DNA from: a virus
Length of the DNA: 28,886 bases
IMG/VR virus record: IMGVR_UViG_3300044825_003481
Location: 1-28,886 of that record
Reading direction: 5' to 3' (one strand)
Positions within the stretch are counted from its first letter, which is position 1. The number at the start of each line of letters is the position of its first letter. The position numbers and the translations under genes were made by a program. The notes beneath the pieces are model-generated. The model worked only from the letters and a program-made list of their open reading frames with translations, was not told the DNA's origin and ran no database searches. Below, piece by piece: positions 1 through 28,468 of the stretch.

Positions 1-61
1 CTTCCGTGGCGCGGCCGCGGCGCCCGCGGCTGGCCAGAAAGTCGTGCAGCCGCCTCAGTCG
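1..61 (-). CDS. -1 frame extension of tail chaperone (partial, runs off the window)
   Basis: After the slippery heptamer at 61-67 the -1 frame reads CGA CTG AGG CGG CTG CAC GAC TTT CTG and stays open to base 1 with no stop. It encodes a short basic stretch (RLRRLHDFLASRG...). In lambda-like phages the longer frameshift product (gpGT type) carries the T domain, which binds the major tail protein during tail assembly. I infer that this is the start of the T-like domain. It could instead be read only from a separate start outside the window. Confidence 0.6.
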
Positions 62-537
62 TTTTTTCGCGCCTCCGCGGTCTCGTAGAGGCCGGGTCGC
101 GCCAGCCGCAGGATCGCGTTGGCGACGGCCTCCAGCACCTCGATCTCCCACTCGTCGATCAGGTCGAAGGTCTTCGCCTCGTTGTCGACCGTCTCGACGC
201 CCATCACGCACAGGTGGCGGGCGTCGTAGCCGGCCAGCGGGTTGCGGCGCTTCTCCTCCTCGACCACGCTGCGCACGTCGCCGGCCTTCGCCTGCCGCGC
301 CTGCGCGCGGTCCTGGGCGTCTTCGATCAGCTTCTGGAACTCGGACACGACATCCGCGCCGCCGATCTTCTTCACCTCGGCGATGCTGTCGCGCTGCTTG
401 ACCTCGGCCGCCTCCTCGAGGCGGCGCCAGCCGAGGCGCTTGATGACGACGGCCGCGGGCCCGTAGTAGCTGGCCACCGTCGCCACCACGGCGCCGGTGC
501 GGTTTTCTGTGATCTCGGTGGTGCGCTGCTCGGGCAT
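55..537 (-). CDS. Tail assembly chaperone, short (G-like) form
   Basis: A 160-residue acidic, helical protein lying directly after the tail proteins in transcription order, where lambda-like phages place the gpG/gpGT chaperones that hold the tape measure protein for tail tube assembly. The ATG at 537 has a strong AGGAGAGG ribosome site about 6 bases upstream. The last codons before TGA are CGA AAA AAC GAC, a perfect -1 frameshift heptamer at the very end of the gene, just where chaperone genes carry it. I do not recognise the sequence itself at family level. The assignment rests on position, size, composition and the slippery site. Confidence 0.7.
   Translation of the reverse strand: MPEQRTTEITENRTGAVVATVASYYGPAAVVIKRLGWRRLEEAAEVKQRDSIAEVKKIGGADVVSEFQKLIEDAQDRAQARQAKAGDVRSVVEEEKRRNPLAGYDARHLCVMGVETVDNEAKTFDLIDEWEIEVLEAVANAILRLARPGLYETAEARKND
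61..67 (-). promoter_or_regulatory. Programmed -1 ribosomal frameshift site (A AAA AAC)
   Basis: On the minus strand the heptamer AAAAAAC sits with the zero-frame codons AAA and AAC in the X XXY YYZ register. It is 3 bases before the zero-frame stop (GAC then TGA). The -1 frame beyond it is open to the window edge. A run of six A is striking in DNA this GC-rich. The downstream stimulatory structure cannot be judged because only about 60 bases remain. Confidence 0.75.
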
Positions 538-566
538 CGGAACCTCTCCTGCGTGGGGAACAAGCG

Positions 567-625: not shown

Positions 626-1045
626 TCAGGCCTCGGTCACCGCGCCGCTGGGCTGCAGCGTCACGGAGTACTTGTGGAGCGCCGCGCGCCCGAGCTTGCG
701 CCCGTACTTCGCGATCAGCGTTTCCACGCTGGTGCTCTTCGTTGAGCCGTAGACGCACTGCCAGGTGCGCAGCGTCTCGCTCGGGCCCGAAGCGGTCGTG
801 GCATACATCGCGTTGGGCCCGCTCGAGGACGTGTCGTCGTAGAGGCCGCCCATCACGATCGGCGCCATGCGGCGCACGCCGGTGGCCAGCGACTCGAACC
901 ACGAATCGCCGAAGGCGTGCGACTCCTCGAGAATCGACTCGATCTCGACGTCGTTGATGTCGAGGGTGTGCTGGGTCATGTCGACCGGGGTGCCGCCCGA
1001 GTTGTCGACGTTGATGGTGACGCTGTTCGATCCGTACTTGGCCAC
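626..1045 (-). CDS. Tail protein, shorter paralogue (possible tail tube protein)
   Basis: A 139-residue protein opening with MAKYGSNSV (GTG start). A clear GAGGAG ribosome site lies just upstream of 1045. The same opening residues, and a later W-(F/E)-E-x-x-ATGV-(R/K)-R block followed by a Y/L-DDT block, occur in the 239-residue protein encoded two genes upstream, so the two look homologous. Position before the frameshifted chaperone is the normal place of the major tail (tube) protein. The family is not recognised with certainty. It could be a tube protein or a tube-related accessory. Confidence 0.6.
   Translation of the reverse strand: MAKYGSNSVTINVDNSGGTPVDMTQHTLDINDVEIESILEESHAFGDSWFESLATGVRRMAPIVMGGLYDDTSSSGPNAMYATTASGPSETLRTWQCVYGSTKSTSVETLIAKYGRKLGRAALHKYSVTLQPSGAVTEA
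1025..1044. repeat. 20-bp exact direct repeat, copy 1
   Basis: The 20 bases at 1025-1044 are identical to those at 2011-2030. Both encode the first residues (AKYGSN) of the two related tail proteins. The identity at synonymous positions exceeds what protein conservation alone requires. Confidence 0.85.
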
Positions 1046-1127: not shown

Positions 1128-1319
1128 TTACGCGTGCGCCTGCTCCTGCAGCCACGCCGCGGCGGCCGCCTTCACACCTTTCGCGTGCCGATGCAGCGCG
1201 ATCGCGAACTGCTGCACCCGCGGGTTGGTCGCGTCCTGGCGGGGGCGGTCGGCGACCGCCACCATTTCGTCGGCCAGGTCCACCATGCGCCGCAGGGCGG
1301 CCGGGTCCGCGCTACCCAC
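1128..1319 (-). CDS. Hypothetical protein, small helical, between tail genes
   Basis: A 63-residue helical protein rich in Ala, Arg and Asp, starting at GTG 1319 and overlapping the stop of the upstream tail gene by 8 bases. Third codon positions are almost all G or C, as in the neighbours. No domain is recognised. Its place between two homologous tail genes suggests a virion or tail-assembly role, but that is only inference. Confidence 0.6.
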   Translation of the reverse strand: MGSADPAALRRMVDLADEMVAVADRPRQDATNPRVQQFAIALHRHAKGVKAAAAAWLQEQAHA

Positions 1320-2031
1320 GGCAGAACCCCGCGAGCACCTGAATCGACCCCGACCCGGTGACGTTGCCGTCGAAGGCCAGGTGCCGGTTGACCGCGCCGG
1401 CCACGGCGACGCGCTGCGCCGCCGGGGCGCTGGTCACGTTCGCGAAGGTCACCAGGTCGGCATACGTCGCGTCGTCGGCGGAATGGCGAATCTTGCCCAC
1501 GAAGCCCGTGAACCCGGTCAGCGCGGTGACCTGCAGGTATCCCGCCCCGCCGGCCGACGAGCTCGCGCCGGCGTCCTGGGACTCGGCGCCTTCCGTGTTC
1601 CAGTCGCTCGCCTTGGGCGTCACGTGCTGCAGCACGATCCCGTCCTCGACGGCGCCGGTCACCGTCGCCGTTTCCTTCACCCTGTGGATCGCGACGCGCT
1701 TCACGGAGCGCGCCTGCTTCGCGATGAAGAGCCCTGCGGCGCCGACGAACTTGGCCCCGACCGCGTTACCGGTGAGGCTAGCGCAGGCGATCCGCTGCGT
1801 GGCCTCGGTGCCGACGAAGGGGTTGATGGTGTCGTCGAGATAGCGGTCCCAGGACCACGACGCGCGCTTGACGCCCGTCGCGCTGGTCTCCTCCCAGGTC
1901 TTCCCGATGCCGTCGGTCCGTTCCATCACCGATTCGCGCTCCGGGCCCTCCATCGCCTGCACGTCCGTGGCCAGGAGGTCGACGCCGTCGACGATGAAGA
2001 ACCCGACCGAGTTCGATCCGTACTTGGCCAT
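1312..2031 (-). CDS. Tail protein, longer paralogue (possible major tail protein)
   Basis: A 239-residue protein with an ATG start at 2031 and a GGGGAAGG-like ribosome site upstream. It opens with MAKYGSNSV and shares the ATGV-K/R and DDT blocks with the 139-residue tail protein at 626-1045. The middle and C-terminal parts are beta-rich, full of Gly, Ser, Thr and Val, as in tail tube or decoration domains (for example VTALTGFTGFVGKIRHS). It follows the head-tail completion genes, where the major tail protein is expected. Which of the two related proteins forms the tube cannot be decided here. Confidence 0.6.
   Translation of the reverse strand: MAKYGSNSVGFFIVDGVDLLATDVQAMEGPERESVMERTDGIGKTWEETSATGVKRASWSWDRYLDDTINPFVGTEATQRIACASLTGNAVGAKFVGAAGLFIAKQARSVKRVAIHRVKETATVTGAVEDGIVLQHVTPKASDWNTEGAESQDAGASSSAGGAGYLQVTALTGFTGFVGKIRHSADDATYADLVTFANVTSAPAAQRVAVAGAVNRHLAFDGNVTGSGSIQVLAGFCRG
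2011..2030. repeat. 20-bp exact direct repeat, copy 2
   Basis: Identical to 1025-1044 and placed at the start of the longer tail gene. The spacing between copies is 986 bp. It probably reflects duplication of a tail gene start. Confidence 0.85.
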
Positions 2032-17486: not shown

Positions 17487-18161
17487 TCAGGCCGCCGCCG
17501 CGCGCCCGCCCGCCGCCATCCGGCGCCAGCAGGCGTGGTAGGCCTCGGCGTAGCAGCGCCGATAGGCCTCGGCGGCCGTCGGCGCGGCCGCCGCGAGGGC
17601 CGCGCAGCGGGCCACGTGGGCGCGTTCCTTGCGCACGGGCGGGCGGGCATACCCCGCCCGCACGGCGCGGCCCCTGGCGCACTCCCAGCCGTTCCGCCAG
17701 CCACGCCGGCCGGCGTCGGGCTTCGTCGCCGTCGCCAGGAACGCGCGCAGGCGGGCGACGAAGGCGCGGCGCATGCGCGCCCAGCCCCCGGCCAGCGCGT
17801 CGGCCACCTTGTCGGGGTGCCGCTGCCAGTACGCCGCCTTCGCGCAGCCCTTCGAGCAGAACTCGCGCCGCCGCCACTGCTGGCGCCGCGACAGCGGCCC
17901 GCCGCAGTGCTGGCAGTGCGTGCGCGTCGGGGCCGGCGTGCCGTGGCGCGTTCGCATCACGCAGCGCATCGAGCAGTGCTCGCCCCGCCGGGCCTGCGCC
18001 CATGTCAGGGGCGTGCTACAGACCCGGCAGTGGGTGGGCGCGCGTCGGGCGAGCGGCCGGCGGCGCGCCAGGTTGGCGCACGGCCGGCCGCAGCACCGGG
18101 TGCCCCTTGCCACCTGCGCCGGCGTCAGCGTCCGACGGCAGCCCTCCCGTGCGCAGGTCAT
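17487..18161 (-). CDS. Protein with three repeated zinc knuckles
   Basis: A 224-residue very basic protein with ATGA overlap at 18161 to the ParB-like gene. Three units repeat in its first 110 residues: CAREGC...CCGRPC, HCRVCSTPL...HCSMRC and HCQHCGGPLS...FCSKGC, each with paired Cys motifs about 20 residues apart. The C-terminal half is Ala/Arg-rich and helical with single cysteines. It probably binds nucleic acid. I do not recognise a named family. Its coupling to parB-like DNA may be functional. Confidence 0.6.
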   Translation of the reverse strand: MTCAREGCRRTLTPAQVARGTRCCGRPCANLARRRPLARRAPTHCRVCSTPLTWAQARRGEHCSMRCVMRTRHGTPAPTRTHCQHCGGPLSRRQQWRRREFCSKGCAKAAYWQRHPDKVADALAGGWARMRRAFVARLRAFLATATKPDAGRRGWRNGWECARGRAVRAGYARPPVRKERAHVARCAALAAAAPTAAEAYRRCYAEAYHACWRRMAAGGRAAAA

Positions 18162-19771
18162 CGCGCTTTCGCCGCCTTCGCCCGGGCCCGCTTCTTCGCC
18201 GGGGTGGCCTTCGCGTCCGTCGCCGGCGCGGCCGGCGTCAGCGCAGCGGCCGCCCGCTTCATGATCGGCGCGAGGTCCACGCCAAGCACCTTCGCCAGTG
18301 GCTCCAGGTCCTCGAACTCGTACCGGTAGTTCGTCCAGCTCGAGTTCGACTTGTCCGGCGCCCGCCTCTCCAGCTCGGTCCCGACGCAATGGCCGACCAG
18401 ATCGCCGACGGTGACCACCGACGCGGGGCGCTTCGTGCCCATGTCGAGGGCGAACCACAGCAGGGCGACCGGATCGGCGCTCGGTGCCGCGGCCGTCAGC
18501 GCGTCGCGGATCGCCGGATACGCCTGCCGATACTGCGCGTTGAACGCGATCCGCTTCGCGTCGGCTGCCTTGCGCTGCTCCGCCTCGGTCTTGCGTTCCG
18601 AGGCCTCCCTCGCATCCGCCGCCGCGCCCTGGCCGCTGGCACGCAGCTTGTCGCGCTTCTTCTTCTCAGCGATCTCGGCCTTCCAGTGGGTCTGGCAGGC
18701 CTCCCGGGCCAGGCACACCTGGAAGGCCGTCCCGTACTCCGGCCCGGCCACCACCAGGCCCAGCACCGAGTGCTCGCAGGTCGGCGCGTCGGCGCGGCGG
18801 CCGCGCGCGTCGAGGACCGTGCCCACGGTGCCGTCGGCGCGCCGCCAGGAGCGGGGCCCGTAGATACGGCCCTCGGTCTTCACCTCGTCGGCGAGGTGGT
18901 ACTCGTGCGTGATGTGCACGACCTTCTTGCCGCGGCCCGTCTTCGCCTCGGCGGCCGCCAGCTGCGTGCTCAGCCGGCCGAACTCGAGCGGCGCGGTGGT
19001 GGCCAGGTGCGACACATCGAGCCGCACGTGGCGGGCGATCCACGCCTCCAGCTCCTTCACCGTCGCCGTCTTGAGCCCGGCGTACGGGTCGGCCGTGCGC
19101 GCGTCGGGGGCCGCGTCGTCGTCGCTGCGATCGAAGGACAGTCCGCCCTCCCGGCCGGCCCACAGCCCGCCATAGGTGGGCCGGAAGTGGGCGCCGTCGC
19201 CAGGGTCCGCGGCGCGCGTCTGGTCGTCGGGCTTCAGCTTCGACAGCACCTCGGCGTGCGCGATCGTGATGCGGCCCTGGTCGAGCAGCTGCTGCAGCGC
19301 CGGAATGAGATCGAGCAGGCGCAGGCGGTCGGCCACCCACCGCTCGCTGCGCGACACGCGCTTCGCCAGCTCCGCCGGCGTCGCCTTCGAGGCCTTGAGC
19401 AGCGCCTTGAAGCCGCGCGCCTCTTCCAGCGGCGTCAGGTCGCTGCGCTGGATCGCGTTCTCCAGCTGCAGCTCGAGCACGCCGGCATCGGTCAGCGTGT
19501 TGCGCTGAATGACGGGCACGAACTGCAGGCCCGCGTTCTGCGCCGCGCGGTACCGGCGCTCGCCATCGACGATCTCGAAGCGGCCCTTCGCCGTGGGCCG
19601 CTCGCGCACCAGCAGCGGCACGTCGATGCCCTTGCGCTGAATGGACTGCGTGAGGTCGGTCAGCCCCTCGAAGTGTTTGCGTGGGTTGGATGGCGACGGG
19701 TACAGCTCGCTCATCGGGATGACGGCCGCCAGGACGGCGCCGCCTTCGGTCGGCACGGTGATGCTGTTCAT
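18158..19771 (-). CDS. ParB/RepB/Spo0J-like protein, long phage type
   Basis: A 537-residue protein. ATG at 19771 has a GGAG-type site upstream. The ParB N-terminal domain shows NPRKHF (29-34), the GERRYRA motif (70-76) that in ParB binds CTP, and LENAIQRSDLTPLEEARGF (from 103). The helix-turn-helix (TPAELAKRVSRSERWVADRL, 131-150) follows. The remainder, with Cys/His elements (CEHSVLG, CLAREACQTH) and a charged helix, resembles C-termini of phage ParB-like proteins. No ParA gene is present, so plasmid-like partition is not implied. It may act in replication or transcription. Confidence 0.8.
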   Translation of the reverse strand: MNSITVPTEGGAVLAAVIPMSELYPSPSNPRKHFEGLTDLTQSIQRKGIDVPLLVRERPTAKGRFEIVDGERRYRAAQNAGLQFVPVIQRNTLTDAGVLELQLENAIQRSDLTPLEEARGFKALLKASKATPAELAKRVSRSERWVADRLRLLDLIPALQQLLDQGRITIAHAEVLSKLKPDDQTRAADPGDGAHFRPTYGGLWAGREGGLSFDRSDDDAAPDARTADPYAGLKTATVKELEAWIARHVRLDVSHLATTAPLEFGRLSTQLAAAEAKTGRGKKVVHITHEYHLADEVKTEGRIYGPRSWRRADGTVGTVLDARGRRADAPTCEHSVLGLVVAGPEYGTAFQVCLAREACQTHWKAEIAEKKKRDKLRASGQGAAADAREASERKTEAEQRKAADAKRIAFNAQYRQAYPAIRDALTAAAPSADPVALLWFALDMGTKRPASVVTVGDLVGHCVGTELERRAPDKSNSSWTNYRYEFEDLEPLAKVLGVDLAPIMKRAAAALTPAAPATDAKATPAKKRARAKAAKAR

Positions 19772-19813
19772 GGACGTGTGGACTCCGAGAAAAGTCGAAA
19801 CGTGGGGTGGCCG

Positions 19814-20140
19814 TTACTGCAGGGTGTCGCCGGCGTCGAGGGTCCGCAGGACCGGCTGATTCGCGCTCGCGCGCTGCCGGTCGATGCGGTCGATCAGGAG
19901 GGAGATCGCGTTGCTCGCGTTATCGAGGTCCTTCTTGGCGTCCGACGCCTTGGTCTTCGCGTCGTCCCAGCGCCCCGCGCACTCATTGCGCTCGTGGTTC
20001 AGCTCGATCAGCTGCGCGATCGCTTCTTCGTCACTCAGCGGGCCGTCGAACACGCCCTGCTCGGGCGGCGGCGCCGCCGCGATCTCCGCCCCGTCGTCGT
20101 TCGCCGCCGCCGCCTTGCCGTCTTTCAGCTTCTTCGCCAT
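19814..20140 (-). CDS. Small coiled-coil protein
   Basis: A 108-residue acidic protein with ATG at 20140 and a clear AGGAG site. Residues about 30-95 form a heptad-like helix (for example ERNECAGRWDDAKTKASDA, then KKDLDNASNAISLLIDRID). The N-terminus is disordered. No family is recognised. It lies between the helicase and the ParB-like gene. Confidence 0.6.
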   Translation of the reverse strand: MAKKLKDGKAAAANDDGAEIAAAPPPEQGVFDGPLSDEEAIAQLIELNHERNECAGRWDDAKTKASDAKKDLDNASNAISLLIDRIDRQRASANQPVLRTLDAGDTLQ

Positions 20141-20148
20141 GGAGTCTC

Positions 20149-21369
20149 CTATCGTGAAAAGTTCCGCGGGAGGCCGAAGTGCACGTTCGTCAGCACGCGA
20201 TCCCGCTGCTCGCCGGTGACGATTACCCACTGGTCGCCGGTCTTGCCGCCCGGCTGCATCCAGAGCTGTTCGATCGGGCCAAAGCGCTTCTTCAGGCCGA
20301 CCAGGTCGACGACATGCGCCGTCGGCTTCGAGGGGTGCGGGCGGATGACGCGCCCGACCTGCTGGTAGTAGAGGGCCAGCGACATCGTCGGCCGCGCCAG
20401 CACCACGGTGGTGAGCTCGGGATAGTCGAAGCCCACGCTCAGCACGCCGACGTTGGCGACGACGCGCAGGAGGCCCTTCTTGAAGGCCCACAGAATCTGC
20501 GCGCGCTTGTCGGCCGGCGTCTCGGCCGACACCACCGCGGCGCCCGGGATCGCGGCGGCCAGGGCCTCGCTCTCCTCCAGGAACCGCGTGAACACCAGCA
20601 CCGATTTATGCCCGGTCGCCAGCAGGTGCTCGACGATGGCGTGCAGGCGCGACACGAACCCGATCTCGGTAAAGTGCTGCTGCAGCGCGCGATCGTCGAA
20701 GTCGGCGCCGGTCGAGTTGAGCCGCACCTTCGTGGTGTCGACCACCTGCGGCTCGTGATACGCCAGCGGCGCCAGGAAGCCCGCGCGGAAGAGCGGCGCG
20801 AGGTTCAGGTAGTACACGACATCGGTGAAGATGCGCGGCCGCGTGCGCGTCAGGAAGCGCAGCTGCGCGCCCATGCTGTCCGAGGCCAGGCGGTATGGCG
20901 TCGCCGTCAGCCCGATCACCCGGGCGCCCTCGAGCACCGCCAGGAAGTCGCGATACATCCCGCCCTTCGGGTTGACCAGGTGGGCCTCGTCGATCAGCAC
21001 GTACTTGAAGTGCTTGAAGGCCTCGACGTGGTTCATGACGCTGCCGATCGTGGCCAGGGTGATCTGGCCGACCCGCTTGCGGTTCAGCGAGGCCGACCAG
21101 ATCGCGGGCGCGTAGCCGTAGCCCCGCAGCTTCTCGGCGTTCTGCTGCAGGATTTCCTTCGACGGCTGGAACACCAGCACCGGCGCGTCGAGCCTGGCCG
21201 CAATGCCGGCGATGACCAGCGACTTGCCGGCGCCCGTCGGAATCACCAGCAGCCCGTTGCGCCCGCGCAGGCGCGGGTTGGTCAGGAACTCGACGCTGCG
21301 ATTGACCGCGTTCTGCTGGTAGCTGCGCAGCACGTAGCCGGGCACGGCCGGCGCGAGCAGCGCGCTCAC
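20149..21369 (-). CDS. Superfamily 2 DEAH helicase
   Basis: A 406-residue protein from GTG 21369, overlapping the nuclease stop as GTGA. Motif I is PTGAGKS (44-50), motif II is DEAH (127-130), motif III is TATPYR (about 155-160), and motif VI is QQVGRVIRPHP near residue 350, with VFTR and a VGFDYP element between. This is a complete DEAD/DEAH-box (RecG/UvrB-like core) helicase of the kind phages pair with a VRR-NUC nuclease. A role in replication restart or recombination is likely. Confidence 0.85.
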   Translation of the reverse strand: MSALLAPAVPGYVLRSYQQNAVNRSVEFLTNPRLRGRNGLLVIPTGAGKSLVIAGIAARLDAPVLVFQPSKEILQQNAEKLRGYGYAPAIWSASLNRKRVGQITLATIGSVMNHVEAFKHFKYVLIDEAHLVNPKGGMYRDFLAVLEGARVIGLTATPYRLASDSMGAQLRFLTRTRPRIFTDVVYYLNLAPLFRAGFLAPLAYHEPQVVDTTKVRLNSTGADFDDRALQQHFTEIGFVSRLHAIVEHLLATGHKSVLVFTRFLEESEALAAAIPGAAVVSAETPADKRAQILWAFKKGLLRVVANVGVLSVGFDYPELTTVVLARPTMSLALYYQQVGRVIRPHPSKPTAHVVDLVGLKKRFGPIEQLWMQPGGKTGDQWVIVTGEQRDRVLTNVHFGLPRNFSR

Positions 21370-21788
21370 GGCACACCGCCGAGTCGGGACGCGGGCAGCT
21401 GCTCGCGCTTCAGGAAGCCCGCGGCGACCAGCCAGGCCATCAGCGCCGACAGGCCGCCAGTAACGTGGGCATGGCCGGCGTTGAAGCACCGGCGGCGGAA
21501 GTCATCCTGTTCGGGGCGCAGGCGCCCCCGTTCGGATTTCACCTCCCACCACACCGCCGTCTCGGCGCCGCCGGCGCCGCGGCGCGGGATGATGGCGTAC
21601 ACGTCCGGGAAGCCCGGCGTCTGACACGTGCCCTGGTAGTCGCCGCCCGGCCGCCGGGTGCCCAGCACGCCCACCCAGGCCCCGAGCGAGCGCAGCAGCG
21701 CCACGCCCTGGGCCTGCTCGGCCTTCTCCGGCACGACCGGCCGACGCCGGCGCGGGGCCCGGATCGTGGACTGCGCGCGCAGGCTCAT
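21366..21788 (-). CDS. VRR-NUC domain nuclease
   Basis: A 140-residue protein. The ATG at 21788 gives an ATGA overlap. A GTG at 21797 would add three residues. The nuclease core reads TPGFPDVYAIIPR, then WWEVKSERGRLRPEQDDFR, the PD...(D/E)xK pattern of virus-type replication-repair nucleases, followed by a helix with ALMAWLVAAGF. Such enzymes cut branched or junction DNA and usually neighbour a helicase, as here. Confidence 0.85.
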   Translation of the reverse strand: MSLRAQSTIRAPRRRRPVVPEKAEQAQGVALLRSLGAWVGVLGTRRPGGDYQGTCQTPGFPDVYAIIPRRGAGGAETAVWWEVKSERGRLRPEQDDFRRRCFNAGHAHVTGGLSALMAWLVAAGFLKREQLPASRLGGVP

Positions 21789-22048
21789 GCGGGCCACCGC
21801 CCGCTTGGCGTCCAGATGGCCACGCGATCGTGCGGCCGCTGGCGCCCGCAGGGCCGATACTCGACGGCGCCGTCCCGATACGCGCCGTCGGGCACGCGCG
21901 CGAGGACCGTCGATCGCCGCTGATCGGGAAAGACCCGCACGCTGCGCGCGTCGGCGCGCACGGCGAAGAGGCGACCGGTGCCGGCAATCTTGCCGACCAG
22001 ACAGACGGTCACGAAACGCTCGCTGGCGGTCGCGGCCGGGGCGGTCAT
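21785..22048 (-). CDS. Small hypothetical protein
   Basis: An 87-residue basic beta-rich protein with ATGA overlaps at both ends. Segments such as RFVTVCLVGKIAGTGRLFAV and DRVAIWTPSGRW are well formed, but no family is recognised. It lies between the replication loader-like and nuclease genes. Confidence 0.6.
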   Translation of the reverse strand: MTAPAATASERFVTVCLVGKIAGTGRLFAVRADARSVRVFPDQRRSTVLARVPDGAYRDGAVEYRPCGRQRPHDRVAIWTPSGRWPA

Positions 22049-22536
22049 GCCGCGCTCCCGGACGTGACGTCCTCGCGCGCCGGCGGCAACGCCAGGCGCG
22101 CCGGCTGGGCCTCCGTCAGCAGCATCGCCGCCTTGTGGCACTCGCACCGCTGCATCCGCGCGATCCCATCCGGCGCCGTCACCTCGCGCCAGCCGCGGTG
22201 GTCCACCGTGCAGACCTCGCAGGCCTCCATCAGCTGGCGCGCCTGGGCGGCAACCGCGCGGCGCCGATCGTCGATGACCGCGGCGCAGGCCGCGCGCACC
22301 TCGCCGGGCTTCGGCATCCAGGTGATGCCCTGGCCGAAGACCCGCGCGAAGCCGGCCTCGAGGACATCCCGCGGCACGTCGTGCAGCTGCATGATCCACG
22401 CCTGCACCACCTCGCGCCCGACGGTCTCGTCGTCGAACAGCGTGGTGGCGGAGGCCCGCACCGCGGGCTTCAGCAGCGCGGCGAAGTACGCCTGGTGCTG
22501 CGCGTCGCGCGCGGACCAGATACTCGAGCCCTTCAT
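22045..22536 (-). CDS. Lambda P-like / helicase loader-like protein with a zinc site
   Basis: A 163-residue protein with ATG at 22536 overlapping the initiator stop (ATGA). The N-terminal 75 residues resemble phage helicase-loader proteins: LFDDETVGREVVQAWIMQL, VLEAGFARVFGQ and TWMPKPGEVRAAC. The middle carries CEVC and CECH about 25 residues apart, a probable zinc site. An initiator gene followed by a loader gene is the lambda O-P order. The loader would recruit host DnaB-type helicase to the origin. Confidence 0.65.
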   Translation of the reverse strand: MKGSSIWSARDAQHQAYFAALLKPAVRASATTLFDDETVGREVVQAWIMQLHDVPRDVLEAGFARVFGQGITWMPKPGEVRAACAAVIDDRRRAVAAQARQLMEACEVCTVDHRGWREVTAPDGIARMQRCECHKAAMLLTEAQPARLALPPAREDVTSGSAA

Positions 22537-23411
22537 GACGGAGTCCTTCCCTGCGCGATGAGCGCATCGATGCCGGCGGCGTGCCCCCGCGGCCGCGCGG
22601 CGGGCTTGTTGCTGCCATGGGTCGCCGACCACGCGTGCTTCCAGAAGTCCCACACGCTGTCGCCCGGGATGCCCTGGAAGCCCGCGCGGTAGGCCAGGGC
22701 CCACTCGCGCACCTGTGCCTCGGCCTGCTCGGGGTCGGCGCCGGCCGCGCGCACCCGGGTGACGAACTCGCGGAAGAGCCGCCCCGGGAAGCAGACGAAG
22801 TCGCAGAAGCCCTCGACGTGGTCGCTGTGCTCCACGCCCCAGCGCCCGGGGCTCGTCAGCAGCCCGGGGCGGCCGGGCGGCAGCTTCGGCGGGCGCGGCG
22901 GGCCGGCGACGGCCGCCGCCACCGCCCCCCCTGCACCCCCCGCAGAAGCATCAGCAGGAGCATCTGCAGTAGCGGGAGCATCGCACGCGCGCGCGTGAGG
23001 GGCCAATCGTGCGCGAACTTTGGGGTGAAAGTCGGCGAAGAGTGCGCGAGTTTTGGTCGAACATTGCTCCAAAAGTTCCGCAGGAACGGGCGGGTGTGAC
23101 GTCGCGCTGGCGTGCTTCAGCCGCTGCCAATCCTGCCAGTCGGGCTGGTAGAGATACCGGCGCGCGCCGTCCGTGAAGACGCCGCAGAGCCGCAGCTCGA
23201 TCAGGCGCTCGATCGCCTGCTGCACCACCCTCGCCGGCTTCTGCTCGAGCCGCGGGCTTTCGCCCTGCAGCTTGGCGGCCGTCGCCGGGCACACGCCGAA
23301 GTCGTCGGCCGCCAGCTGGTAGCTGATCCAGACGCAGAACTCAAAGTCGGTCAGGGCCGAGGACCGATCGCCGGTCTCGGCTTCTCGGTGAATGAGCCGG
23401 TACGTGGCCAT
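22533..23411 (-). CDS. Replication initiator-like protein (lambda O-type layout)
   Basis: A 292-residue protein with ATG at 23411 overlapping the upstream stop (TGATG). The N-terminal 90 residues form a winged-helix region (ALTDFEFCVWISYQLAADDF, ARVVQQAIERLIELRLCGVF). Residues about 115-190 are a low-complexity Ala/Pro/Asp linker. The C-terminus (FPGRLFREFVTRVRAAGADP, then WALAYRAGF) may bind the loader encoded next. DNA encoding the linker carries short repeats that could be the origin, as in lambda O. Confidence 0.65.
   Translation of the reverse strand: MATYRLIHREAETGDRSSALTDFEFCVWISYQLAADDFGVCPATAAKLQGESPRLEQKPARVVQQAIERLIELRLCGVFTDGARRYLYQPDWQDWQRLKHASATSHPPVPAELLEQCSTKTRALFADFHPKVRARLAPHARACDAPATADAPADASAGGAGGAVAAAVAGPPRPPKLPPGRPGLLTSPGRWGVEHSDHVEGFCDFVCFPGRLFREFVTRVRAAGADPEQAEAQVREWALAYRAGFQGIPGDSVWDFWKHAWSATHGSNKPAARPRGHAAGIDALIAQGRTPS
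22940..23085. other. Candidate replication origin (iteron-like repeats)
   Basis: Two near-identical 15-mers, GTGCGCGA(A/G)(C/T)TTTGG, lie at 23009-23023 and 23042-23056, 33 bp apart and in the same direction. A third, partial, inverted copy lies at 23069-23081. Left of them AGCATC recurs at 22947, 22959 and 22977. The codons here (GAT GCT, CCC, AAA GTT) break the strong GC-third-position habit of the gene, so DNA sequence, not protein, seems to be conserved. It sits inside the initiator gene. Confidence 0.5.
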
Positions 23412-23791
23412 CAGTTCCTCGGGGCGGCCTTCGTGGCGATGTCGACGTCCATCCGCTCGAACGTCTCGCGATTGGCGCGGGCGCCCGCCGCGGCCATCGC
23501 GGTGCAGCCGGCCTCGTGGGTGGGCGCGTCGCAGTAGGCCTCCAGCGCCTGGGCGACGCCGCGGAGGGACGCGGTCTTGCGCGCGAAGTTCTCGCGCGGG
23601 TCGGGAATCATCACCAGGCGCGCCAGCATCGTGGCGGTCGCACTGATCGAGATGTCGAGCGGCGCGCCGAGCGTGCTGAAGAACTCGGTCAGCACGTCGC
23701 AAAGCACGTGCATCGCCGCTTCTTTCTCCCGCAGCTGCTGCACCGTCTGCGGCAGCAGGCCATTGGTCTGATCTGGCCCCAGGTTGCTCAT
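23411..23791 (-). CDS. Small hypothetical protein next to SbcC
   Basis: A 126-residue helical protein with ATGA overlap at 23791 and TGATG overlap at its end. It contains a helix (VQQLREKEAAMHVLCDVLTE) and DISISATATMLARLVMI. No family is recognised. It is coupled between the SbcC-like gene and the initiator gene, and may act with either. Confidence 0.6.
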   Translation of the reverse strand: MSNLGPDQTNGLLPQTVQQLREKEAAMHVLCDVLTEFFSTLGAPLDISISATATMLARLVMIPDPRENFARKTASLRGVAQALEAYCDAPTHEAGCTAMAAAGARANRETFERMDVDIATKAAPRN

Positions 23792-26124
23792 GCGGCCTCC
23801 TGAAATGGTGGCCGGCACACGCGCACCTGGCCGTCGTCTAACCGCAGCTGCACATCCGCCAGGGCCGCGGCCGCGGGGTTGTGCGAGACGAAGATCACGT
23901 GCCGCACGTGCCCGATGGTGCGAACGCGCCGCAGCATCTCGATGTAGCGCAGGGCGTTCTCGGGATCGAGCGGGCCGGTCGTCTCGTCGCGCCACAGCGT
24001 CTCGATGGCGCCGGCATGCCGCGCGTTGATCACCAGCGCGAGGGCGTTCTTCAAGGCCTCGTCGACCAGAATCTGCTCGCCGCCGCTGAGGTCGGCCAGG
24101 TCGCGCGCCGCGCCGCCGCGCAGGTTGTCCAGCACGCGCAGGTCGAAGACCTCCTTCGTGCCCTTGCCGTCGGCCTTCTCCGCCTGGGTGATCAGCTCCA
24201 CCGTGAAGCGCGGGCCGAAGCAGACGCTGAGCAGGTCGTTGGTGTAGGCGCTGACCGTCGGCCCGGCGGCGTCGATTTCGAGCACCGGCAGCCCGTCGCG
24301 CCCGAAGGCCCGCGCCAGCAGCGCCCACTCCCGCACCTCGGCGTTGATCTGGTCCATCTGCCGCGCGACGGCGGCCGCGGCCGCCGTCTTCTGCTCCCAG
24401 GCGTGCAGGCGTTCCGATAGCGTGGCCAGTTGCTGCTCCAGCCGCGCGCGGTCGCCGGCGAGCGTCAGCGCCCGGGCGTCGATCGTGGCCAGCTGCGCCT
24501 CGGCGTCCTGCAGGGCGGCCGCCGCCGGCGCCGTGCGGGCCGCGTCGGCCTCGCCGGCCGCGGTCTCGGCGCCGACCTGGTCGAACTGCTGCTGGACCGC
24601 CCGCCGCTCGTCGGCGATGCGGTCCAGCGTCGCGCGCTGCCTGGCCGCCGCCGCCTGCTCCTGGGCGGCGTACGCCTCGATCGCCCGATCGCGCATGTCC
24701 CGCAAGTCCGCGATCCGGGCCTCGGCGTCCTCGAGCTTGGGCAGCAGCGCCGCGACCGGCTCCAGGTCGGCGACGGCGGCGCGCGCCGTCGTCAGCTCGG
24801 CCACCAGCCGGCCGTGCGCGTCCCGGCGTCCGGCACCGTCCAGCCCCAGGGCCGCCACCGCCTCGCGCCTGGCCGGCTCCGTGGCCACCAGTGCGCGCAG
24901 GGCGGGCAGGACGGCCGCCGCCTCCCGGGCGTCCGCCACGAAGGCGCAGGCGTCACAGGCGCCCGCCAGGCGCGCCGCTGCGGCCTCGGCGCGCTGCAGG
25001 TCGCGCTTCGCCACCGCGACCTCGGTCAGCGCGCGCTCGGCCGTCGACAGCTGATCCCGCCAGGCCAGGCCCTCGGCGTTCGATACCTCGATCGCCACCT
25101 CCAGCTGCGCCAGCGCCGCGCGGGCCGACACCAGCCGGGCGGCCGCGTCCCGCACCCGCTCGGCATCGCCCAGGAGGGCCTCGTTCCTCGCGATCCGGGC
25201 GTCCAGGTCTGCCAGCGCGCGCGCGTGATTCGCCGCGGCCAGGGCGCTCTCGGCGTCGAAGGTCTTCTCCGCGGCCGCCGCCTGGGCCGCCAGGCCGCTC
25301 GAGCGGACGATCAGCCCGGCGGCCTCGTTGGCGAGCGCGCGCAGGCGCTCGGTCGTGCGCTCGTGGGCCATCGCCCGATCGCGGTGGCCATCGCGCTCGG
25401 CCACCAGCCGCGCGCGATCGTCCGCCAGCGTCGCCAGGCCGGCGGCCATGCGGGCGATGCCATCCGCCGCCGCCTGCAGCTGCTGCTCCAGCTCCGGGCC
25501 GAGATGCGCGGGGGCATCGGTCTTGAGCATCACGCGCTCGGCGCCCAGGGCCACCAGGCGGCCCTCGTAGCGCGCCGCCGCCTGCTTCGCCGTCGCGCTC
25601 ATCGCCTCGAAGCGATCGAGCCCCAGCAGCCGCGAAAACAGCTCCTTCCGACCGCGCTTGTCGAGGGAGACGAAGCTGCCGGCGCGGTTCTGCGCGGCGA
25701 CCGCCGAGGCCAGCAGGACGTCGCGCGAGGGAAACACCCGCGCGACCGCCTCGTCGTAGGTGCTGACCTTGCCATCGTTCAGCAGGGTCGTCGTGCCGTC
25801 CTCGGCGACATGGGTCAGGACGGCGTCGGCCGCGCGCCGCTGGCCGTCGAGGTTCACACGGGCGCGGTAGGTGCCGCGCGTGTCGATCGTGAAGACCGCC
25901 TCGATGAAGGCGTCGCGCCCGTGCGCGTAATCGACCAGCGGCGTATCCTGGCGCGAGGGAAAGCCGCGGTAGAGCGCGGCGATCGGCGCCTCGACGAGGG
26001 TGGTCTTGCCGGAGCCGTTGGGCCCCACCACCGCCACGAGGCCTTCAGGCAAGGCCGCCAGGTCGACGGTGACCGGATCGGCGAAGCGGAGAACGCCGCC
26101 GATGCTGATGCGATCGAGCTTCAT
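23788..26124 (-). CDS. sbcC: SbcC/Rad50-like SMC ATPase with zinc hook
   Basis: A 778-residue protein with ATGA overlap at 26124. The ATP-binding head has Walker A GPNGSGKT (34-41), the signature LSGGEQ (679-684), a Walker B-like segment IETLWRDETTGPLD (707-720) with D713/E714, and FVSHNP with H748. A coiled coil with CDAC (390-393) as zinc hook fills the middle. It would pair with the SbcD-like nuclease encoded upstream to process DNA ends, hairpins or protein blocks during phage recombination. Confidence 0.9.
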   Translation of the reverse strand: MKLDRISIGGVLRFADPVTVDLAALPEGLVAVVGPNGSGKTTLVEAPIAALYRGFPSRQDTPLVDYAHGRDAFIEAVFTIDTRGTYRARVNLDGQRRAADAVLTHVAEDGTTTLLNDGKVSTYDEAVARVFPSRDVLLASAVAAQNRAGSFVSLDKRGRKELFSRLLGLDRFEAMSATAKQAAARYEGRLVALGAERVMLKTDAPAHLGPELEQQLQAAADGIARMAAGLATLADDRARLVAERDGHRDRAMAHERTTERLRALANEAAGLIVRSSGLAAQAAAAEKTFDAESALAAANHARALADLDARIARNEALLGDAERVRDAAARLVSARAALAQLEVAIEVSNAEGLAWRDQLSTAERALTEVAVAKRDLQRAEAAAARLAGACDACAFVADAREAAAVLPALRALVATEPARREAVAALGLDGAGRRDAHGRLVAELTTARAAVADLEPVAALLPKLEDAEARIADLRDMRDRAIEAYAAQEQAAAARQRATLDRIADERRAVQQQFDQVGAETAAGEADAARTAPAAAALQDAEAQLATIDARALTLAGDRARLEQQLATLSERLHAWEQKTAAAAAVARQMDQINAEVREWALLARAFGRDGLPVLEIDAAGPTVSAYTNDLLSVCFGPRFTVELITQAEKADGKGTKEVFDLRVLDNLRGGAARDLADLSGGEQILVDEALKNALALVINARHAGAIETLWRDETTGPLDPENALRYIEMLRRVRTIGHVRHVIFVSHNPAAAALADVQLRLDDGQVRVCRPPFQEAA

Positions 26125-27341
26125 GCCGCCACCGCCGATCCCGCGCCGGCCATCGCCGCCAGCCGCGCCTCGAGGTGCGCGAGCAGCGCCGCGGCGTCCT
26201 GCGCTTCGAGCGCCGCGAGCTTCGCCAGCAGGCCGTCGGTCACCTCGACGCCCGAGAGGGCGCAGTAGGCGCGCAGCTTGTCGGCCGTCGTGGTCGCCGC
26301 GGCCACCTCCGGCGCGCGCACCGCGCGATCCGGGACCGCGACCGGTTCCAGCTCCAGGTGCGCCACCTCCGCGAAGTCCGCCAGCAGCTGCGCCCGCGCG
26401 AGGTCCAGGCGCCCGGCGTCGCGCGCCTGGAAGCGGTACCGCACGCGAACCTCATCGCCCGCGAAGCTGGCCGGCGTGCTTTCCACCGGGCCCTCGGGGC
26501 CCTTGCGGACCACCCAGGCCACGTGGGTGCCATCGAAGACGCCCTCAACGTGCCAGAGCCGCGGCAGGGCCAGCGGATGCGACGTGGTCGTCCACCGCGT
26601 GCCGTCGTAGTCGAGCGTCAGGAAGCGCCGCGGCGTCACCTCGGCCCAATCGGCCGGGGCAATCGACCCAACGTAGACCGCGCCGTGCAGCTCCTGCGGC
26701 TCGTGAATGTGGTTCAGCACCTTCGGCACGTCATCACCCAGCCGCGCCAGGTGCTCGGGGCGCAGCGCGATCTCCGCGCCGACCAGCGGCTGGCCGGTGG
26801 ATGCGACGGCGCCGAGCAGATTGGCGTGACCGATGAAGAGCGGCGCCGCGCCATCCGCGCGCGCGGCGCCGAGGTCGCCGGCGAACTTCATGAAGATCGC
26901 GTCGAGCGCCGCGGCGGCGACGTCGGGCACATCGGGCGGCGCGATGCCCATCGCCGCCAGCGCGCCCTCCTCGGGATACGGCAGGCAGGCGACGGCGATC
27001 CACCCGCCGCGCGTGTGCATCACATGGACGTCGGGCTCGGTCGCCACCACCACCGCGTGCGCGGTCTCGATCGCGCCGAAGATGTCGAGGTCGCCGGGCG
27101 CGTCGTGGTTGCCGCGCACCACCAGCACGCGGGCCACCGCGCCCAGCCGCTGCAGGTAGCCCAACAGGATGTTCCGGTCGTCGATCGACGATCGGGTGTC
27201 GAAGAGGTCGCCGGGCCACACGATCAGGTCGGGGCGCAGCGCCTCGGCGGCCGCCGCGATCTGATCAAGGGCCCGCAGGCGCAGCGCGTTGCGGCGCGAG
27301 GTGGAGCGCAGGTGTCCGTCGCCGATGGCCAGGACGCGCAT
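26121..27341 (-). CDS. sbcD: SbcD/Mre11-like metallophosphoesterase nuclease
   Basis: A 406-residue protein with ATG at 27341 overlapping the upstream stop (TGATG). It holds the phosphoesterase motifs DGH (8-10), GDLFD (44-48), GNHD (77-80), FIGHANL and HIHEP, which bind two metals. A capping domain and a C-terminal helical tail follow, perhaps for SbcC binding. The adjacent SbcC-like gene, overlapping by ATGA, confirms the pair. An upstream in-frame start at 27908 lies inside the preceding gene and is rejected. Confidence 0.9.
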   Translation of the reverse strand: MRVLAIGDGHLRSTSRRNALRLRALDQIAAAAEALRPDLIVWPGDLFDTRSSIDDRNILLGYLQRLGAVARVLVVRGNHDAPGDLDIFGAIETAHAVVVATEPDVHVMHTRGGWIAVACLPYPEEGALAAMGIAPPDVPDVAAAALDAIFMKFAGDLGAARADGAAPLFIGHANLLGAVASTGQPLVGAEIALRPEHLARLGDDVPKVLNHIHEPQELHGAVYVGSIAPADWAEVTPRRFLTLDYDGTRWTTTSHPLALPRLWHVEGVFDGTHVAWVVRKGPEGPVESTPASFAGDEVRVRYRFQARDAGRLDLARAQLLADFAEVAHLELEPVAVPDRAVRAPEVAAATTTADKLRAYCALSGVEVTDGLLAKLAALEAQDAAALLAHLEARLAAMAGAGSAVAA

Positions 27342-28468
27342 CAGTAGCCCCCGTCCTGCGCGCCGTCGAACAGCCGGGGGCTCTGCCCCGCCGGCGCGAT
27401 TTCGACAAGGTTCTCGAAGTCGCCGTCCCGCTCGACGATCATCTCGACCCAGGCCTTCGCGTCGTGCGCCTTCTCCGCGGCGTCGCGCAGGGCGGTGTCG
27501 AAGGTCGAGTGCGTCTTGCCGCGGCTGTCGACCACGAGGAAGCGCGTCCACTTCCGGCCGTTCGTCTCGCCGCTGCGGCTCGTGATGCCCGTGATGCGCA
27601 CGGCCTCGGGCGTGGGCGGCTCGTCGGGCGCCGGCGCCGCCGGCTTCGCGGCCGCCGTCCCGGCGCCGACCACGCGCGGCTCTCCCGCCGGCTCGGGCTC
27701 GGGCTCGTCGGGAATGGGCCGAGGCGCCCCGGCGCCGATCAGCCCGGCGCCGCCGCCGTAGAGCGCCGACGTCGCCTGCAGGGCCGCGCCGGTCACGATG
27801 CGCCGCACCTCGGGGTCCGACATATCGGGCTGGAAGGACACGCGGATCGCGATGAAGGGCTTCTTCAGCTGCTCGAGCGTGTACTTCTGCGAGATGCCGC
27901 AGCCGCACTCCCGGATCGCGGCGTTGATGGCGCGGGCCTCGCAGTTGCGCAGGCCGTGCTTCCGGCCCTCGTTGACCTGGTCAGCCGTCCAGCCTTTCAG
28001 CTGCGGCGAGCCGTCGCGCAGGTCCCACTCCTTCGTCGCCTCGCGCGTGATTGGCGTGCCGTCGAGGCCGCGATAGGTGGCGACCGCCTTCACCTTCCAG
28101 AAGAAGCGGTGCCCGGTCGGCAGGTCGTAGGTCTGCGTGCTGATGCCCGCCCCTTCGGCGAGCTTGCGCAGGCCCTTCTTCGCCAGCGCCACCTCGCTGC
28201 CCTTTTTCAGAAACGGCAGGCCGTCATAGACCTCGCCCGGGCCTTCGCGCCGCGTGTCAGGGTTGATGGTGACGACGGAGCCGCTGATGGCCCAGCCGGG
28301 CGCGAGCGCCGTGAAAGTGCTGAACGGCGTCAGCACGTTGAACTGCTGCTGCCACTCCGCCAGCTTGGCCGCGAAGGCCTCCGGGCTGGTGATCATGGCG
28401 GAGCCGCTCACCGCGCGGGTGAGGGCCTGATTGTCGGTCGTGCTCGGTTCTGCTACTTTCGTCGTCAT
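27341..28468 (-). CDS. Candidate ssDNA-annealing protein with OB-like C-terminus
   Basis: A 375-residue protein with ATG at 28468 and GGAGG upstream. The N-terminal 230 residues include VALAKKGLRKLAEGAGI, a beta segment (HRFFWKVKAVATYRGLDGTP) and GLRNCEARAINAAIRECG, the helix-rich pattern of phage recombination annealases, followed by TLEQLKKPFIAIRVSFQPDM. A Pro/Ala linker leads to an OB-like domain (VRITGITSRSGETNGRKWTR to WVEMIVERDGDFENLVEI). Its place before an SbcCD-like nuclease fits an exonuclease-annealase pair. No named family can be assigned by eye. Confidence 0.6.
   Translation of the reverse strand: MTTKVAEPSTTDNQALTRAVSGSAMITSPEAFAAKLAEWQQQFNVLTPFSTFTALAPGWAISGSVVTINPDTRREGPGEVYDGLPFLKKGSEVALAKKGLRKLAEGAGISTQTYDLPTGHRFFWKVKAVATYRGLDGTPITREATKEWDLRDGSPQLKGWTADQVNEGRKHGLRNCEARAINAAIRECGCGISQKYTLEQLKKPFIAIRVSFQPDMSDPEVRRIVTGAALQATSALYGGGAGLIGAGAPRPIPDEPEPEPAGEPRVVGAGTAAAKPAAPAPDEPPTPEAVRITGITSRSGETNGRKWTRFLVVDSRGKTHSTFDTALRDAAEKAHDAKAWVEMIVERDGDFENLVEIAPAGQSPRLFDGAQDGGY

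Follow-up and report, generated by a model that had tools for sequence, protein, structure and literature searches.

The question raised by this locus is whether the short gene at the edge of the window encodes the G-like member of a pair of tail assembly chaperones, and whether its end directs ribosomes into a second, T-like domain in the −1 frame. The window is the whole stretch of DNA analysed, a complete virus record (G000) of 28,886 bases with a GC percentage of 71.9, and the record ends at the window edge. On the basis of sequence comparison, we estimate a probability of roughly 94% that the gene encodes such a G-like member, with a −1 frameshift at A_AAA_AAC into a T-like domain. Direct support exists for the motif and its conservation, for the change of the selected frame and, in relatives, for the downstream domain and a tape measure ORF.

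The gene, its neighbours and the slippery heptamer

537..55, minus strand: tail assembly chaperone (G-like) gene, predicted, zero frame, 160 aa, ATG start, stop TGA at 57..55
541..550, minus strand: ribosome binding site AGGAGAGGTT 5′ of the ATG of the G-like gene, read directly from the letters
626..1045, minus strand: tail protein adjoining the chaperone gene, GTG start, PHROG "major tail protein" match, used as query for relatives
1312..2031, minus strand: second tail protein, PHROG "major tail protein" match
61..67 (A67..C61), minus strand: slippery heptamer A_AAA_AAC, in register, with the same heptamer in 42 of 66 distinct related junctions and another canonical X_XXY_YYZ heptamer in 14 more

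The PHROG matches of the two neighbouring genes to major tail proteins were weak but consistent. Further away, upstream of the structural module (18158-28468, minus strand), PHROG matches to a ParB-like protein, a DNA helicase, a replication initiation protein, and SbcC/SbcD-like nuclease subunits were identified.

On the minus strand, the 3′-end of the gene reads ...GAG GCG CGA AAA AAC GAC TGA. The last base of CGA constitutes X, AAA is XXY and AAC is YYZ; a single sense codon GAC (60..58) and the stop TGA follow, which bears out the sequence-only reading of a heptamer in X XXY YYZ register one sense codon before the zero-frame stop. It had also held that six A in a row are unlikely by chance in such GC-rich DNA, and this is the only A6 run in the 28,886 bases with both strands counted, when about 0.14 occurrences of AAAAAAC per strand are expected under a first-order model. 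Lysine is encoded by 100 AAG and 10 AAA codons in the window, and with this codon usage the chance of the spelling NNA AAA AAC, given the residues K-N, is about 0.003.

Relatives of the locus and conservation of the slip site

When the 160-aa protein of the window was used as a direct query, no relative was found in viral contigs or phages. The tail protein at 1312..2031 matched seven viral contigs, and an alignment of the tail protein at 626..1045 with its relatives matched 46; the tail protein query returned no match in genome contigs (one scan) and none in phages. Where the gene order was kept, the next gene ended in the same motif with the −1 frame continuing, and the 160-aa G-like gene is homologous to the zero-frame ORF at this place. 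In four loci (L030, L031, L032, and L034) the homologue of the 626..1045 protein was present in another gene order, in some of them before head-tail connector-like genes. A third search with T-like domain queries resulted in 62 loci; all T domains together were too diverse for profile scanning, and a closer subset was used. Both sets were merged at 90% identity into 66 distinct junctions from viral contigs. Part of the second set was found via the pattern KKRL, which favours lysine pairs, not the AAA AAC spelling, and the junctions obtained by other means than this pattern include 14 with A_AAA_AAC and 10 with other canonical heptamers. Five loci (L044, L047, L056, L033, and L046) were read separately, outside the count of 66.

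In total, 56 of the 66 junctions had a canonical heptamer at the same place: 42 A_AAA_AAC, six G_GGA_AAC, three G_GGA_AAA, two A_AAA_AAA, and one each of T_TTA_AAC, A_AAA_AAT and C_CCT_TTG. The codon preceding AAA ended in A in every case, matching the requirement of the register, and exactly one sense codon preceded the stop in 35 of the 42 A_AAA_AAC junctions. Seven junctions had no canonical heptamer, mostly with GCG GGG GAA (GGGGGAA) in its place, a spelling which marks a subgroup of six loci (L085, L090, L092, L093, L100, and L105), and three junctions need a +1 or −2 shift. In two of the loci read separately, L033 and L046, T is reached by −1 at shorter A runs.

The −1 frame and the T-like domain

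2..67, minus strand: beginning of the T-like domain in the −1 frame, KKRLRRLHDFLASRGRRGRATE, truncated by the record end; residues 4-13 score 15.9 against the profile of the relatives

The −1 frame is open to the window edge, as had been claimed from the letters, and comprises 22 codons within the window. Of all six-frame segments in the window, this edge frame ranked highest against a profile built from the relatives, at E-values of 0.09–0.27 (HMMER, 22 residues). The usable measure for so few residues was a position-specific score, from which the first three residues were omitted as largely dictated by the heptamer; the stretch LRRLHDFLAS scored 15.9 bits, when 17,831 random stretches of the same strand averaged −9.3 with a maximum of 10.6.

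The sequence-only reading had proposed to extend the sequence and see whether the −1 frame runs into a T-like domain followed by a long tape measure gene. Because the record ends at the window edge, this extension was followed in the relatives, with a positive outcome: L004, L005, L007, L008, L011 and others have about 100–110 codons of a conserved T-like domain in the continuing −1 frame, after which a long ORF begins. A tape-measure-type ORF was located directly after T or one gene later in the relatives read onward, and the ORF after T matched tape measure families in L007 and L005. One additional gene lies between T and the next long ORF in L044, L049, and L053. The proposed position of the gene between tail tube candidates and a tape measure gene is thus upheld by the weak major tail protein matches on the window side and by the tape measure matches in these two relatives.

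Mismatches between close pairs of relatives, counted by zero-frame codon positions 1/2/3, were 51/30/186 upstream of the heptamer and 43/221/77 downstream, in eight close pairs which in part share a member and hence are not all independent. The least constrained codon position moves by exactly −1 at the heptamer, which fits translation in the zero frame before it and in the −1 frame after it. In the relatives, the T frame opens at a median of 13 codons upstream of the heptamer, and in 34 of 41 A_AAA_AAC relatives it has no ATG, GTG or TTG in this interval; both features argue against separate initiation of T.

Candidate stimulatory elements

26..53, minus strand: possible stimulatory hairpin GCGGCTG/CAGCCGC, 7 bp, from 7 nt after the heptamer, at a position shared with relatives
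72..76, minus strand: SD-like GGAGG, possible stimulator, 4 nt upstream of the heptamer, of a kind enriched across 56 junctions (z −7.6)

Folding of the 42 nt starting 2 nt after the heptamer was compared with sequences in which synonymous codons were redrawn from the usage of each locus. Across the 56 junctions, the directly downstream fold was more stable than expected (mean z −1.53, Stouffer Z −11.5); stretches further downstream were around zero, and upstream stretches were mildly negative, to −3.8. At the family level, a hairpin starting 5–8 nt downstream, as in the dnaX type of site, is thus present. The hairpins were aligned, and their geometry was too variable for a covariation count, for which reason the energy test alone was used. 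The SD-like site upstream of the heptamer was stronger than elsewhere in the same genes (56 junctions, z −7.6); Glu codons are conserved there, and the enrichment may in part reflect selection on the protein. The 7-bp hairpin of the window was not significant by itself (z −0.38), the GC content being too high, and its GGAGG ranked at the 16th percentile of its own gene, which is not distinctive. For this phage, both stimulators are accordingly candidates by analogy with the relatives.

Alternative explanations

The T-like domain could be a separate gene with a start of its own, the A-run being incidental. An independent start is formally possible in the window, where the −1 frame has 186 open codons upstream and contains a GTG. 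In the relatives, however, start codons are absent from the T frame before the heptamer in the 34 of 41 cases given above, an ATG within the first 12 T-frame codons occurs in few of them, and the heptamer is conserved at codon level in spite of the GC-rich DNA; a separate T gene is therefore considered very improbable.

A fusion might alternatively arise from slippage of RNA polymerase on the A-run, and a six-A homopolymer is indeed present. Against this, the run is short, relatives have GGGAAAC and TTTAAAC without a long homopolymer at the same place, and the hairpin 5–8 nt downstream and the SD-like site fit a translational signal, which leaves polymerase slippage with just as little probability. 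That the motif stands by chance at the end of an unrelated gene could be argued from one occurrence in one window, for which the expectation is ~0.14 per strand, but dozens of independent contigs have the same motif at this place, the frame of selection switches there, and coincidence is the least probable explanation of all. Ribosomal −1 frameshifting at A_AAA_AAC is the reading which we retain.

Protein family and a cultured relative

Neither Pfam nor PHROGs contains the protein family, which is not yet catalogued. For 30 G-like members no Pfam hit was obtained, and PHROGs gave three stray single-member matches of unknown function; 15 T-like members had no meaningful Pfam or PHROG family, and in these two collections neither protein matched lambda G/T or another catalogued chaperone family. 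A match to a curated family is useful for naming chaperones but not required, as these proteins diverge widely. The AlphaFold model of the window protein (pLDDT 82.5) found nothing in PDB and no significant match among viral structures; several proteins named "tail assembly chaperone" were among the top 50 viral structures, with weak scores (E about 0.6–1.6, TM about 0.3–0.4).

The cultured Bacillus phage vB_BpsS-36 (MH884513) probably has the same layout, judging by a weak tblastn match (E-value 0.9) to which position and motif lend support. Its gene 18 ends in A AAA AAG TAA, thus with A_AAA_AAG in place of the A_AAA_AAC of the window, and a similar domain (..FHCLPSQ..) follows in the −1 frame. 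In the annotation, genes 18 and 19 stand as two separate hypothetical proteins, and similarity to tape measure proteins is noted for the second gene after 18.

In three loci (L037, L046, and L062), the G-like protein to which the T-like domain is joined looks different and has a Y-H-P-H motif (EEYHPHAGE or a similar sequence). This pairing suggests that G and T modules may be exchangeable.

Comparison with known systems

In E. coli dnaX the −1 shift leads into an early stop. Its heptamer is A_AAA_AAG, whereas A_AAA_AAC of the window would lead into a second domain; an A-rich heptamer and a downstream hairpin are shared features, and the SD-like site upstream may be a counterpart of the dnaX stimulator (PMC3711429, PMC5600365), with the hairpin and the SD-like site of the window attributed from its relatives. 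In E. coli, A_AAA_AAC is less slippery than A_AAA_AAG (PMC5009743).

The match to the lambda G/GT frameshift which the sequence-only reading had proposed holds for mechanism and layout, and fails for the heptamer and for the sequence family. As in lambda gpG/gpGT, a short chaperone with a −1 extension is located between tail tube and tape measure genes, and the first gene has an X_XXY_YYZ site close to its end (PMC5009743, PMC7618472). The lambda slip site is G_GGA_AAG (PMC7618472), so the likeness does not extend to the heptamer; nor is a sequence relation to lambda detectable in Pfam or PHROGs, and the relatives here have a significant downstream hairpin. The heptamer A_AAA_AAC itself is that of the G-T shift in the archaeal (haloarchaeal) virus HCTV-2 (PMC5009743). 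For the tail assembly gene of corynephage phi16, an internal SD GAGG, a slippery GGGGGAA and an RNA structure have been predicted (PMC5506516); the GGGGGAA of that proposal is also present in the subgroup of relatives described above, and the structure predicted in phi16 is an H-type pseudoknot, in contrast to the simple hairpin here. Tailed phages widely conserve a frameshift between a short and a long tail chaperone, which is −1, −2 or +1 depending on the phage (PMC5009743), and earlier work has proposed SD-like elements and downstream structures for tail genes (PMC3483164, PMC5506516). Two chaperone sites in one study gave 6–7% shifting (PMC3711429).

Proposed mechanism

The occurrence of the shift, its frequency and the chaperone function are here inferred from comparison. 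Most ribosomes would terminate at TGA and release the 160-aa protein. A minority would slip back by one base at A_AAA_AAC, where the P- and A-site tRNAs would re-pair on AAA AAA, and reading would then continue as CGA CTG AGG..., which would add a T-like domain of about 100 aa and give a longer G-T fusion. The slip is probably aided, in the relatives, by the SD-like sequence just upstream and by the hairpin 5–8 nt downstream, in the manner of E. coli dnaX. If lambda is taken as the model, the short form may coat the tape measure protein, and recruitment of the tail tube protein may fall to the long form, which is the rarer of the two.

Lineages with a possible +1 or −2 shift and implications

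In three of the loci read separately (L044:~5960, L047:~5983, and L056:~3463), a conserved GAC AAA AGY, with GGAGG 5 nt before the AAA, is the point at which the T domain lies in the +1 (or −2) frame; the simplest reading would be that AAA slips by +1 onto the AAA overlapping it. In L069:~3000 and L109:~2995, the T domain is reached via +1 or −2 at a shared GAG GGG CGA, which presumably resembles the −2 site of phage Mu. In L062:~3000, the T frame is +1/−2 relative to the zero frame at CAG CAA AAA AAG G, where an assembly error in the A-run is possible.

Tail chaperone frameshifting is itself long established, and the present case is an ordinary one. The annotation of the 537..55 gene is settled, and the relatives contribute an alignment of about 56 natural slip sites whose downstream hairpin is measurable, from a family outside Pfam and PHROGs; in all of these loci the long product would be split or missed by automatic annotation. 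Whether these loci constitute a chaperone family, as yet uncatalogued and belonging to uncultured phages, whose homologous G and T domains are joined mostly by −1 at several heptamers and in a few lineages by +1/−2 at GAC AAA AGY or GAG GGG CGA, with the SD-like site kept just upstream in several, is in our judgement an evenly balanced matter. If true, the family would provide a natural series in which the frameshift signal changes direction while the protein product stays conserved, and the +1/−2 lineages could be used for studying how the direction of a programmed shift changes.
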